Source: Betaproteobacteria bacterium (GTDB lineage: Bacteria > Pseudomonadota > Gammaproteobacteria > Burkholderiales > SG8-39). Taken from it: DNA of 52,555 bases. Under the pieces are notes generated by a model. The model had not been told where the DNA came from. It saw only the letters and a program-made list of their open reading frames with translations, and searched no databases. The stretch spans positions 1-52,555 of the forward strand of contig JANXUV010000179.1 of the NCBI GenBank assembly GCA_025356085.1, in the 5' to 3' direction. The translations under genes and the position numbers were made by a program. Positions 30,998 through 36,700 of this stretch are shown here, one piece after another. How positions within the stretch are numbered: the stretch's first letter is position 1; each line of letters starts with the position of its first letter.

Positions 30998-32083
30998 ATG
31001 ACCACCAGACGCGACTTTCTTGCTTCCACGGCCGGCATCGCCTTCGTCGGCTGCAGCATGCTTTCGGCACGCCCCACGGCAGCCCAGGCCAGGCGCCAGA
31101 CCATCGTCGCGGGCAGGCGCGCAAAAGTGATCGATGTGCACGCGCACTGCGCGGTGCCCGAAGCGCTGGCGCTGATGGGCCTGAAGATCGGCGGGCCGCA
31201 ACTGCGGCCGGACCTGGTCATGGCGACTACCGCCGCCGAACGCATCGCCATCATGGACGCGCAGGGCATCGACATGCAGGTGCTCAGCATCAATCCGAAT
31301 TGGTACAAACTCGAGCGCGATCTCGCCGAGAAAGTCATCCAGGTGCAGAACGAGAAGCTCGCCGAGGCCTGCGCCGCGCACGCGGACCGCTTCGTCGCCT
31401 TCGCCTCGGTGGCGCTGCAGCATCCCGACCTCGCGGCCCGGCAGCTGGAGGAAGGCGTGAAGAAATACGGCCTGCGCGGCGCGGCCATCGGCGGCAGCGT
31501 GAACGACCTGGAGATCAGCGATCCGAAGTTCCACCCGTTCTGGGCCAAGGCCGAGCAGCTGGGCGTGCTGATCTTCATCCACCCGCAGGGCACCGGCGCC
31601 ACCGAGCAGATGGCGCATCGCTTCAAGGGCAACGGCTATCTCGGCAACGTGATCGGCAATCCGCTCGAGACGACGATCGCGCTCTCGCACCTGATTTTCG
31701 AGGGCACGCTCGACAAATTCCCCGGCCTGAAGATCTGCGGCGCGCACGGCGGCGGCTACCTGCCCTCCTACGCCGGCCGCAACGACTGGGGCTGCCCCAC
31801 CCGGCCCGACCTCTGCCCGGGCGGCACGCATGGCCCGCTGAAGAAAAAGCCGACTGAGTACCTCACGCAGATGTACTACGACACCATGGTGTTCTCGCCC
31901 GAAGGCATCCGCCATCTCGCCGCCGAAGTCGGCGCCGGCCGGCTGATGGTCGGCACGGACTATCCCTACCCGTGGACCAAAACCATGGTGGACGAAGTGA
32001 TGGCCACGCCGGGCCTGAGCGAATCCGACCGCATCGCCATTCTCGGCGGCACCGCGGCGAAATTGCTCGGCATCAAGCTCTAG
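30998..32083 (+). CDS. amidohydrolase-2 family protein (ACMSD-like metal-dependent hydrolase/decarboxylase) with Tat signal
   Basis: Twin-arginine N-terminus MTTRRDFLASTAGIAFVGCSML; metal motif VIDVHAHCAVPEA; IFIHPQGTG; GAHGGGYLPSY; VGTDYPYPW. Confidence 0.9.
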   Translation: MTTRRDFLASTAGIAFVGCSMLSARPTAAQARRQTIVAGRRAKVIDVHAHCAVPEALALMGLKIGGPQLRPDLVMATTAAERIAIMDAQGIDMQVLSINPNWYKLERDLAEKVIQVQNEKLAEACAAHADRFVAFASVALQHPDLAARQLEEGVKKYGLRGAAIGGSVNDLEISDPKFHPFWAKAEQLGVLIFIHPQGTGATEQMAHRFKGNGYLGNVIGNPLETTIALSHLIFEGTLDKFPGLKICGAHGGGYLPSYAGRNDWGCPTRPDLCPGGTHGPLKKKPTEYLTQMYYDTMVFSPEGIRHLAAEVGAGRLMVGTDYPYPWTKTMVDEVMATPGLSESDRIAILGGTAAKLLGIKL

Positions 32084-32990
32084 CGTTCCCGCGCCGCAAG
32101 AAGAGATTATTCGCGGCGAGCGCGACGATGACGACGGCCGCGCCGCCGATCTCGATGGCCGAGAAGTTGCGCCCCAGCCAGGCTTCGATGCCGAACACGA
32201 TGATTGGTATGAGAGTCAGCATCAGCATCGCGTTCAGCGCGCCGAGATATTTCACGCCGTTGTTGAAGCCGAGCACGCCGAGCACGACGGTGAACACCAC
32301 GAAGTAACCGAGCTGCCACTTCACCGACCAGACCTGCTCCAGTGTCGGCAGCATCGAGTAGCCCATGCTAATGGTGAAGGCGTTGATGGCGATGAGGCCG
32401 ATGGTGCCGGGGATGCAGGTCAGCACCGTCATGCGCAGCGGCGACCATCCCGCGAAGTGGCCGCCCGCCATGGTGTAGGTCACCCAGCTCACCGCGCCGA
32501 GAAAAACGAGCAGATCGCCGACGAGCGAGCCGCCTTCGAAGGCATGCGCGAGATCGCCCTTGGTGACGACCAGCAGCACGCCGGCGATCGCCACCGCGAT
32601 GCAGCCCACGGTGAACGGCGCCGGCCGCAGGCCGCGGGTCAGCCAGACCGCCAGCGCGATCATCGGCGGCTGCAGCGCCATGATGATCGACGCGTGCTCG
32701 GGGCGCGTGTAGGCAAGCCCGCACCAGACGAAGGAGTTGAAGGCCGTGAAACCGAACAGGCCGTACACCATTGCCGGCAGGAAGCGTCCGTTGTAACGCA
32801 ACGCCTGCCGGCCTTCGGCGATCCACAGGATGGCGATGAACAGCAGCACGCCGATGGAATAGCGTATCGAACCGAGGAAGAACGGGTCGAGCACCGGCAG
32901 CGTGCGCTTGGCGATGGAAAACAGCGCGCCCCAGGAGGCGATCGCGATGCCGAGCCAGACCAGGCCCCTGATTAAATGGGCCTGGTTTAT
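32073..32990 (-). CDS. EamA/DMT-family transporter; start codon non-canonical (best candidate ATA at 32990-32988)
   Basis: The track ORF begins at an internal GTG (32894). The homologous-looking N-terminus INQAHLIRGLVWLGIAIASWGALFSIAKRTLPVLDPFFL reads in frame back to the fadD TAA with no ATG/GTG/TTG. Confidence 0.75.
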   Translation of the reverse strand: MNQAHLIRGLVWLGIAIASWGALFSIAKRTLPVLDPFFLGSIRYSIGVLLFIAILWIAEGRQALRYNGRFLPAMVYGLFGFTAFNSFVWCGLAYTRPEHASIIMALQPPMIALAVWLTRGLRPAPFTVGCIAVAIAGVLLVVTKGDLAHAFEGGSLVGDLLVFLGAVSWVTYTMAGGHFAGWSPLRMTVLTCIPGTIGLIAINAFTISMGYSMLPTLEQVWSVKWQLGYFVVFTVVLGVLGFNNGVKYLGALNAMLMLTLIPIIVFGIEAWLGRNFSAIEIGGAAVVIVALAANNLFLRRGNARA

Positions 32991-32995
32991 TTTTT
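32959..32995 (+). terminator. terminator-like stem-loop with T-tract on the plus strand, overlapping the 5' end of the EamA gene
   Basis: ACCAGGCCC-(CTGATTAAAT)-GGGCCTGGT perfect 9-bp stem, then TTATTTTTT; faces convergently arriving plus-strand transcription. Confidence 0.5.
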
Positions 32996-34664
32996 AAGCT
33001 GCCTTCTTTTCGTCGCGCAACGCCCGGCGCAGGATCTTGCCGACGTTGGTCTTCGGCAGCTCGGCGCGGAATTCGATATGCTTCGGCATCTTGTAGCCGG
33101 TCAGGTTCTTGCGGCAGTGATCGAGCACCGCCTGCTCGGTGAGCGCCGGATCTTTCTTCACCACGAACACCTTGGGCACTTCGCCGGATTTCTCGTCCGG
33201 CACGCCGATGGCGCAGCATTCGAGCACGCCGGGGCAGGCGGCCACCACGTCCTCCAGCTCGTTCGGGTACACGTTGAAACCCGACACCAGGATCATGTCC
33301 TTCTTTCGATCCACGATCTTCACGTAGCCGCGCTCGTCCATGACGCCGATGTCGCCGGTCTTGAAGGCGCCGTCCTTCGCCATCACCTTGGCGGTTTCCT
33401 CCGGGCGCTGCCAGTAGCCCTGCATCACCTGCGGGCCGGCGATGCAGATCTCGCCCACCTGACCCACCGCGAGGATGTTCTCGTCGTCGTCGCGGATGGT
33501 GATGATGGTGCTCGGCACCGGCAGGCCGATGGTGCCGCTGAACTCCGTGATATCCACCGGGTTGGTGGTCGCCACGGGCGAGGTTTCGGTGAGGCCGTAG
33601 CCCTCGAGGATCGGCACCCCGGTCGCCTGCTTCCAGCGCTCAGCCACCGCCTTCTGCATCGCCATGCCGCCGGCCGAGGCAAGCCGCAAACGCGAGAAGT
33701 CGATGCCGGAGAATCCCGGGTGGTTCAGCAGCGCGTTGTAGAGCGTGTTCAGGCCGCTGATGGCGGTGAAGCGGTTGTTGGTGAGCTCCTTGATGAAGCC
33801 CGGGATGTCGCGCGGGTTCGGGATCAGCAGGCAGCAGCCGCCGTCGCGCAGCATGAACAGGCAATTGCAGGTCAGCGCGTAGATGTGGTAGAGCGGCAGC
33901 GGCGCGACCATGACGAGCGGGTCGTCTTCCTTGCGCGTCGGCGAGAACCAGGCCGAGACCTGCTCCATGTTGGCGATGATGTTCCGGTGCAGGAGCACCG
34001 CGCCTTTCGACACGCCGGTGGTGCCGCCGGTGTACTGCAGGAAGGCGATGTCCTCCGGCCCGACGTCGACCTTCTTCATCTGCATGCCCGCGCCCTGGCG
34101 GATGGCGTCGTTGAAGCGGACCGCGCCAGGCAGGTTGAACGCCGGCACCAGCTTCTTGACGTTGCGCACCACGAAATTGACCAGCAGTCCCTTCACGCCG
34201 AGCAGGTCGCCCAGGCTGGCGACGACGATGTGCTTGACCGGCGTCTTCGGCAGCACCTGTTCGAGCGTGGTGGCGAAGTTCTCGAGAATCACGATCGCCT
34301 CGGCGCCGGAATCCTTGAGTTGGTGCTCGAGTTCGCGCGGCGTGTAGAGCGGATTGACGTTCACCACCGTGTAGCCGGCGCGCAGGATGCCGAACACCGC
34401 CGCCGGGTACTGCAGCACGTTCGGCATCATCACCGCCACGCGCGCGCCCTTGGCGAGCCCCTTGGACTGCAGCCAGGCGCCGAAATTGGTCGACAGCCGG
34501 TCGACGTCGCCGAAGTTGATGGTCTTGCCCATGCAGATGTAGGCGGGCCGGTCGCGGTACTTGCCGATGTTCTCGTCGATCAGGTGCGGGATCGAGCGGT
34601 AGGCGTTGACGTTGATCTCCGCGGGCACGCCCTTGGGATAGCTCTTCAGCCAGATTTTTTCCAT
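32994..34664 (-). CDS. fadD: long-chain-fatty-acid--CoA ligase
   Basis: MEKIWLKSYPKGVPAEINVNAYRSIPHLIDENIGKYRDRPAYICMGKTINFGDVDRLS; LQYTGGTTGVSKGAVLLHRN; GFNVYPNELEDVVAACPGVLECCAIGVPD. Confidence 0.94.
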   Translation of the reverse strand: MEKIWLKSYPKGVPAEINVNAYRSIPHLIDENIGKYRDRPAYICMGKTINFGDVDRLSTNFGAWLQSKGLAKGARVAVMMPNVLQYPAAVFGILRAGYTVVNVNPLYTPRELEHQLKDSGAEAIVILENFATTLEQVLPKTPVKHIVVASLGDLLGVKGLLVNFVVRNVKKLVPAFNLPGAVRFNDAIRQGAGMQMKKVDVGPEDIAFLQYTGGTTGVSKGAVLLHRNIIANMEQVSAWFSPTRKEDDPLVMVAPLPLYHIYALTCNCLFMLRDGGCCLLIPNPRDIPGFIKELTNNRFTAISGLNTLYNALLNHPGFSGIDFSRLRLASAGGMAMQKAVAERWKQATGVPILEGYGLTETSPVATTNPVDITEFSGTIGLPVPSTIITIRDDDENILAVGQVGEICIAGPQVMQGYWQRPEETAKVMAKDGAFKTGDIGVMDERGYVKIVDRKKDMILVSGFNVYPNELEDVVAACPGVLECCAIGVPDEKSGEVPKVFVVKKDPALTEQAVLDHCRKNLTGYKMPKHIEFRAELPKTNVGKILRRALRDEKKAA

Positions 34665-34693: not shown

Positions 34694-35905
34694 CTAGCGA
34701 GCTCCCGCAAAGACACGCACCACTATCGGCGCGGCAAGGCAGCCTGCGCCAATGGCGACATAGGCCCAGATCCAGGCCGCGGCGCTCGCCTCGCCGCCAC
34801 CCAGATCGAGCGCCAGGCCGAACAGCGACGGCCCGAGCATGCCGCCGGCGAATCCCGCCAGCGAATACAGGCCGAGCGCCGCCCCGCGCAACTCGGGCGG
34901 CACGGCGCCGACCAGGCCCGCGGTCAGGGTGCCCGAATCCGCCATTACGAACAGCGCGTGCAGCATCAGCAGCGCCAGCACCACCGGCCAGTACGCCGGC
35001 GCGGCAACCGCCAGCACGATGCCGGCGGCGCCGGAGGCGACCATGGCGATCTGGATCCAGCGCCCCCGGCCCATGCGCATCGCCACTTCATTGCCGAGGA
35101 TGGAAGACGGCACCGCGCCGAGGTTCACCGCCGCCGCGATGGCGGCGAGGTTCCACGGAAATTCCCCGCCCGGCGCCTGCAGGCTGGCCGAATAGGCGAG
35201 AAAAGCCACCATCCAGCCGCGCGAGCCGAACAGTTCAATGCAGTGCGCCGCGTAGCCGAGCGTAAAGCCCGCGGCCGCGCGGTTCGACAGGACCTTGCGC
35301 CACGCGGCAACGGGGAACAGGGTGGCCAGCGAGAAATTGATTTGTTTGCTTTCCTGAACTTCCGCTTTTTTGACAAAAACGAAAACAATTACCCCCGCAA
35401 GCAACGGCCCCAACGCAGACACCACGAACGCCCAGCGCCAGCCCTGCGTCGCCGCCAGGATGCCGGCCAGCGCCAGCGACAGCGCGGTGCCGACGCCGAA
35501 GAACGAGGTATAGAAGGAAATGTAGCGGCTCTGCAGCGGGCCGCTGACGCGGTCCGAGAGCAGGCGCAGACCCGGCATGTAGCTCGCGGCCACGCCCGCG
35601 CCGAGCAGCGCCTGGAACAAAGCGGCGCTCGCCAGCCCCTGCGCCGCGAAGCCGAACCCCGCCTCGCCGACGACCGCGAGCAGGCTGCCCGCGAGGTAGA
35701 CCTTGCGCCCGTCCACGCGATCGGTAAGCGCGGTCCAGTAAGAGACGGTCGCGATGTAGCCGAGAAAGAATGCGCTGCCGATCAGGCCGGCCTCGGTGTT
35801 GCTCAACCGCCAGAGATCGCGCAGCTCCGGCAGCAGCGCCGCATAGGTCGCGAATCCCAGCATCGACAGGATGTGAGACCCGATGAGAACGTAGGCAGGG
35901 TTAAT
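34694..35905 (-). CDS. MFS transporter; start codon non-canonical (best candidate ATT at 35905-35903)
   Basis: Track start ATG 35863 lies inside TM1. In-frame upstream residues INPAYVLIGSHILSMLGFATYAALLPELRDLW complete TM1, but no ATG/GTG/TTG occurs before the ECH stop TAA. Confidence 0.75.
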   Translation of the reverse strand: MNPAYVLIGSHILSMLGFATYAALLPELRDLWRLSNTEAGLIGSAFFLGYIATVSYWTALTDRVDGRKVYLAGSLLAVVGEAGFGFAAQGLASAALFQALLGAGVAASYMPGLRLLSDRVSGPLQSRYISFYTSFFGVGTALSLALAGILAATQGWRWAFVVSALGPLLAGVIVFVFVKKAEVQESKQINFSLATLFPVAAWRKVLSNRAAAGFTLGYAAHCIELFGSRGWMVAFLAYSASLQAPGGEFPWNLAAIAAAVNLGAVPSSILGNEVAMRMGRGRWIQIAMVASGAAGIVLAVAAPAYWPVVLALLMLHALFVMADSGTLTAGLVGAVPPELRGAALGLYSLAGFAGGMLGPSLFGLALDLGGGEASAAAWIWAYVAIGAGCLAAPIVVRVFAGAR

Positions 35906-35923: not shown

Positions 35924-36700
35924 TTAGCGGTTCTTAAACTTCGGTTTTCTTTTTTCAACGAACGCGGCCATGCCCTCTTTCTGATCTTCAAGCGCAAACG
36001 CAGCATGGAACAGCCGCCGCTCGAACAGCACGCCTTCCGACAACGTGCTTTCATAGGCGCGGTTGATGGATTCCTTGATCATCATCGTCGCGGGTAGCGA
36101 ACATGAGGCGATTTTCTCCGCCACCGCCATCGCCTCCTCCATCAGCTTGTCGTTGGGCACCACGCGCGACACCAGGCCGGCGCGCTCGGCTTCCGCCGCA
36201 TCCATCATGCGCGCGGTGAGGCACAGGTCCATCGCCTTGGCCTTGCCGACCGCGCGCGGCAGCCGCTGGGTGCCGCCCGAGCCGGGCAGCACGCCGAGGT
36301 TGATCTCGGGCTGGCCGAACTTCGCGCTCTCGGCGGCGATGATGATGTCGCACATCATGGCCACCTCGCAGCCGCCCCCCAGCGCGTAACCCGCCACCGC
36401 GGCGATCACCGGCTTGCGCACGTTGCGGATATGTTCCCAGTCGCGCGTGATGTAGTTGGACATGAACGCGTGCTGGAAGTCGAAATCCTTCATCGCGCCG
36501 ATGTCGGCGCCGGCGGCGAAAGCCTTGTCGTTGCCCGCGATCAGGATCGCGCCGATGTTGTCGTCGGCATCGAAGGCGTAGAGCGCGGCGCCCAGCTCCT
36601 GCATGAGCTTCGGCGCCAGCGCGTTCAGCTGCTTCGGCCGGTTGAGCGTGACCAGCCCGACGCGCCCTTTCACTTCGGTCAGGATGAATTCGTAGCCCAT
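35924..36700 (-). CDS. enoyl-CoA hydratase (PaaF/Crt-like)
   Basis: [96 protein letters not shown]. Confidence 0.93.

Follow-up and report, generated by a model that had tools for sequence, protein, structure and literature searches.

The window analyzed here is the whole 52,555-nucleotide stretch of contig JANXUV010000179.1 from an incomplete MAG of a Betaproteobacteria bacterium (GCA_025356085.1), and the minus-strand cluster considered within it comprises four genes in the order enoyl-CoA hydratase, MFS transporter, fadD and EamA transporter. The enoyl-CoA hydratase gene (35924-36700; NF004517, E 5.9e-139), the first of the cluster, and fadD (32994-34664; NF005463, E 3.8e-291), encoding a long-chain fatty acid-CoA ligase, both start with ATG. 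The MFS transporter gene lies in an open frame of 35923-34694 and, when counted from a candidate ATT codon, has a coding sequence of 34694-35905 (PF07690, E 9.7e-38). The EamA/DMT transporter frame extends over 306 codons from stop to stop (32993-32073) and, when counted from an ATA codon near its beginning, gives a coding sequence of 32073-32990, the end of which is overlapped by 11 nt by the end of a convergent plus-strand amidohydrolase gene (30998-32083). At the junction of fadD and EamA the minus strand reads GCA GCT TAA AAA ATA AAC CAG GCC CAT TTA ATC AGG GGC CTG, with the fadD stop TAA (32994-32996) located 3 nt upstream of the ATA (32988-32990).

The original prediction held that EamA lacks a canonical start codon ahead of a GTG at 32894, that use of this GTG would cost the first transmembrane helix (TM1), that the ATA sits where a family methionine would be expected, and that AAGG lies about 11 nt upstream of it. 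Each of these statements is borne out. No ATG, GTG or TTG occurs in the EamA frame of the window sequence between the fadD TAA and the GTG at 32894-32892, exactly as stated. This GTG, the first canonical in-frame start codon, is positioned past TM1 both in the sequence and in the structure model, and its use would remove that helix. In orthologues that have a canonical start, the methionine falls in the alignment one residue ahead of the ATA, and AAGG, a weak Shine-Dalgarno-like match within fadD, is found at 33005-33002, 11 nt before the ATA. The proposed identity of the protein as an EamA transporter is likewise confirmed by a PF00892 match (E 1.4e-27; 97 bits versus a curated cut-off of 28.2) that has its best stretch from residue 9 and comprises two stretches corresponding to the two EamA repeats. 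The AlphaFold2 model (pLDDT 89) has confident first helices at residues 3-20 and 23-30, with the TM1 helix beginning directly after the ATA codon, and matches full-length DMT transporters in the PDB over about 300 columns (5i20, LicB 7paf and the triose-phosphate translocator 5y78). A search by profile gave no match to a solved structure at E 0.001. As modeled, the EamA protein has the DMT fold including TM1.

EamA orthologues are present in 49 of 98 family genomes at E 1e-40, and ten genomes from two genera, that of the window included, form a close-coupled set in which EamA follows fadD at a distance of 0-5 nt (3 nt in the window, with gaps of 3, 0, 5, 1 and 2 nt occurring overall). An alignment of homologous fadD-EamA loci, which had been proposed with the original prediction as a means of inspecting the start codon, shows a noncanonical codon in all ten. 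The aligned start column reads ATA, ATT, ATC, CTG, ATC, ATA, ATT, ATT, ATC and ATC, with ATA in the window and G002, ATT in G009, G032 and G052, ATC in G003, G004, G078 and G073, and CTG in G012. The column thus holds AUH or CUG in 10/10 orthologues and ATG, GTG or TTG in 0/10, and no ATG, GTG or TTG is found in the close-coupled relatives between the upstream in-frame stop and TM1. As every other column from -4 to +6 holds AUH or CUG in at most one of the ten orthologues, the missing canonical start is more than chance. The third base of the nine AUN starts is A, C or T and never G. In genus g1 the pN/pS is 0.42 for EamA codons 3-10 and 0.45 for codons 3-33, and in g21 the values are 0.18 and 0.19, respectively; the purifying selection on codons 3-10 indicates that they are translated. 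Distant EamA orthologues, most of them farther from fadD, carry ATG, GTG or TTG in the place of the ATA or no more than about one residue from it. Conservation of the column, together with its alignment beside the orthologue methionine, strongly indicates that the ATA is the EamA initiation site, and coupling of EamA to fadD termination is likely. The AUC and CUG codons that had been considered as alternative starts in the window, ATC at codon 8 and CTG at codon 11, were rejected, as neither is conserved as a near-cognate in all relatives.

Several loci show variations of their own. In the EamA copy of G002 (L013, G002:C27), codon 9 is an in-frame TAG and about 35 codons are deleted, and the copy looks decayed; the fadD and MFS frames of this genome are nevertheless open, and EamA is, to judge from its sequence, dispensable there. 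The EamA orthologues L022 (in G075) and L010 (in G007) are located away from fadD and have no clear canonical start, with CTG codons as candidates. Near the junctions in L008, L009, L025, L124, L125, L131 and L133 lie copies of a short dispersed element, GGTCTGNCCCC, and of its reverse. These junctions have wide gaps and mostly ATG or GTG starts, and near-cognate starts may have been displaced there by insertions of the element.

The MFS gene of the cluster appears to start in the same manner. Its first ATG (35863) falls within TM1 and homology extends farther upstream, with a pN/pS of 0.50 across nine genomes for the 12 codons that precede this ATG. In the window, the hydratase stop TAA is followed after 18 nt by an ATT (35903-35905), the putative MFS initiation codon, and CTG, TTG or ATA is present at or beside this codon in relatives. 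The hydratase gene ends in CTGA in six of them (G002, G003, G004, G054, G065 and G013), an arrangement in which CTG would be the MFS start and would overlap the hydratase TGA by 4 nt, and G005 has TTGA at the same junction; in G008 a CTG is found 12 nt after the hydratase stop, and in G075 an ATA is found far from it. These junctions point to a near-cognate MFS start comparable to that of EamA, presumably ATT in the window and CTG in relatives.

The specificity of the trait was examined in a screen of about 1.4 Mb of contigs from ten genomes of the genus, whose genomes are draft assemblies; 117 orthologue families showed substitutions of the coding type and had an N-terminus that could be tested. 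The raw flags included many shadow frames, which were removed by their codon-position pattern, and the remaining small flags were judged by eye. A conserved N-terminus extending past every canonical start was found only in EamA, MFS, infC and prfB. The infC gene is the textbook case of an AUH start, and the flag on prfB, a gene identified here from its protein sequence, presumably reflects its known programmed frameshift. As the screen recovers only these known exceptions besides EamA and MFS, the trait is gene-specific and the lineage is not generally lax, and lineage-wide relaxed initiation was rejected as an explanation. In nearly all relatives examined infC (L086 in the window genome, G000) starts with ATC or ATA, indicating that AUH starts work in this lineage, and the control genes fadD (13/13 relatives), hydratase (12/12) and LysR (9/9) start with ATG. 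Exact matches to the initiator-tRNA anticodon arm are present in G004, G007 and G010, with none in G000, whose MAG is incomplete.

A comparison of gap length and start type covered 32 entries for which both are known. At gaps of up to 14 nt, 11 of 13 starts are near-cognate and two are canonical, versus two near-cognate and 17 canonical among the 19 with gaps above 14 nt. The near-cognate trait occurs mainly in two clades with at least four changes on the tree, and the link between gap and start is not significant after phylogeny is taken into account because only three independent contrasts fall on well-supported branches. Closely coupled genes need not have a near-cognate codon, as L101 (GTG, gap 6) and L034 (TTG, gap 4) show, and a canonical start is missing in L022 (gap 54), and perhaps in L010, even though neither is closely coupled.

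An AAG or AAGG is found 0-15 nt from the start in relatives (11 nt in the window) with poorly conserved spacing and length, and a strong Shine-Dalgarno sequence at 5-9 nt, typical but not strictly defining of infC-class starts, is absent in the window and relatives. Just 3′ of the EamA ATA lies a 9-bp hairpin, ACCAGGCCC/GGGCCTGGT (32959-32986, minus strand; z -1.95 for 121 nt). A like stem is limited to the window, G009 and G003 and is absent in the other coupled relatives, and a conserved hairpin was therefore rejected as the device. When read on the plus strand, positions 32959-32996 comprise a hairpin followed by TTTATTTTTT and resemble an intrinsic terminator, and such an element would halt antisense transcription that enters EamA from the convergent amidohydrolase gene; a terminator scan with a loop limit of 8 did not report it.

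The explanation judged probable for these data is that EamA starts at the AUA 3 nt past the fadD stop through coupled near-cognate initiation, held weak by selection, on the part of ribosomes fresh from termination. Among the three options put forward in the original prediction, it is AUA initiation coupled to fadD termination that is supported. Upon terminating on fadD, the ribosome (30S or 70S) would be placed by the stop codon over the EamA start region, where AUA would be accepted inefficiently with fMet-tRNA, such that the first EamA residue would be fMet. Selection would keep AUH or CUG, and never AUG, to hold the transporter far below the level of the coupled enzyme, and AUG may be avoided since more transporter would be harmful or wasteful. 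As IF3 rejects near-cognate codons, transporter output should drop at high IF3, which would place the EamA start under IF3 control. The MFS gene, arranged likewise behind enoyl-CoA hydratase, would receive its ribosomes from the hydratase gene at low efficiency. Reinitiation, low output, IF3 sensitivity and a benefit of the arrangement are what we infer for EamA. Efficient reinitiation is confined to distances of a few nucleotides, with a steep loss by 14-38 nt (PMC10666635); EamA, with gaps of 0-5 nt, and the MFS CTGA overlaps fit this. IF3 destabilizes non-canonical codons, and its excess lowers reinitiation even at AUG (PMC2268962). According to figures cited in PMC11497404, CUG starts yield 0.86% of AUG and account for 0.024% of bacterial starts, while in S. 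aureus the output of AUA and AUU starts is about 10% of that of AUG (PMC13009471), and the GTC start of sigR, which IF3 represses, determines how much of its protein is made relative to the partner (PMC5472188). Several observations stand against the explanation: the Shine-Dalgarno matches are short, the window MFS ATT lies 18 nt from the upstream stop, a distance at which reinitiation should be weak, the gap-start link loses significance after phylogeny, L101, L034, L022 and perhaps L010 depart from the pattern, and the G002 copy is decayed.

It is also conceivable, although rather unlikely, that the trait reflects tolerated drift, in which a weakly needed and closely coupled transporter lost the pressure for AUG and no selection acted for weak initiation. 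The decay of the G002 copy and the concentration of the trait in two clades would fit such a history, but the EamA protein is under purifying selection, G is never the third base in the nine AUN starts, and a second transporter of the operon, MFS, shows the same trait. More doubtful is de novo initiation at AUA (or AUC, AUU or CUG) with fadD translation merely keeping the mRNA open. This form of coupling by RNA unfolding would have ribosomes finishing fadD open the 9-bp hairpin after the ATA, and the similar stems in G009 and G003 speak for it; however, the other coupled relatives have no such hairpin, the Shine-Dalgarno sequences are short, and recently found de novo near-cognate starts carry extended ones (PMC13009471).

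Internal initiation at the GTG at 32894, or at an ATG at codon 24 in other relatives, would yield a short EamA and is very improbable. The GTG is present at codon 34 in most genus members, but its use would delete TM1, a conserved helix that belongs to the fold and is subject to purifying selection, and orthologues with ATG, GTG or TTG initiate before TM1; the internal GTG was rejected on the basis of selection on codons 3-33 and the structure model. Hardly any weight can be given to stop readthrough or frameshifting into a FadD-EamA fusion, although the two genes share a frame and are one stop apart in the window and four relatives. All three relative frames occur, the stop is TAA, TAG or TGA depending on the relative, and many EamA orthologues are separate genes, and this variation in frame and stop rules out the readthrough fusion originally proposed. 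Equally remote is an assembly or sequencing error hiding an ATG, a possibility for which the single MAG and the A-rich run at this position speak. Nine other genomes, including the separately deposited MAGs MEQQ01 (ATC in MEQQ01000014), SBAS01 (CTG in SBAS01000117) and JALHLN01, also have no canonical codon there, and the A-run is spanned by a codon-for-codon alignment; an error was rejected on these grounds.

Near-cognate initiation at the AUA after fadD termination shares features with several known systems. EamA resembles the infC class in having no canonical start compatible with its conserved N-terminus and a noncanonical codon in 10/10 close-coupled orthologues, and the fadD-EamA pair has the stop-start spacing expected of a termination-reinitiation pair (same strand, gap of 3 nt, 0-5 nt in nine relatives). 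Like EamA, infC (AUU, AUC or AUA) has a conserved AUH start, which is ATC or ATA in the same lineage and never AUG in E. coli-type cases. In contrast, infC is autoregulated by its own product, whereas EamA and MFS encode transporters directly behind a stop for which no feedback role is known to us. In Streptomyces sigR (PMC5472188) a non-canonical start, GTC, likewise sets a protein ratio within an operon whose genes are coupled, but sigR lies upstream and its RBS is extensive, while here the downstream gene has the weak start and probably needs upstream termination. The S. aureus genes cvfC1 (AUU), ccpN (AUA) and citZ (AUA) likewise have AUH starts, conserved in cvfC1 and ccpN, with an output of about 10% of AUG, but these rely on extended Shine-Dalgarno sequences (PMC13009471), whereas EamA has a weak one and begins 0-5 nt after a stop. 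The ATGA and TGATG termination-reinitiation pairs (PMC6728339, PMC10666635) have a similarly short stop-start distance, and the CTGA of MFS in relatives is the same -4 overlap as in ATGA pairs; they differ in that the start codon here is AUH or CUG. ATT is mentioned in PMC10666635 only for -5 overlaps, where it might account for odd annotations.

While infC-type starts and termination-reinitiation are both known, conserved gene-specific near-cognate starts close behind stops in two transporter genes, in most relatives on the stop itself or only a few nt from it, appear to be new, and conserved non-canonical starts have been characterized in only a small number of bacterial genes. Annotation will probably have shortened the EamA and MFS proteins by one transmembrane helix. 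The stringency of start-codon selection during reinitiation (30S or 70S, IF3) becomes testable with these native junctions, varied by evolution in codon (AUA, AUU, AUC, CUG, TTG) and gap (-4 to +18). A more general proposal, advanced tentatively, is that near-cognate starts on or just after stops form a conserved ratio-setting device, in which enzymes have AUG and coupled transporters AUH or CUG, and in which output tracks upstream termination and IF3. If this were true, gene finders accepting only ATG, GTG and TTG would systematically miss such starts. The presence of the trait in two transporter genes of one operon suggests that reinitiating ribosomes and weak codons can together set enzyme-to-transporter ratios.
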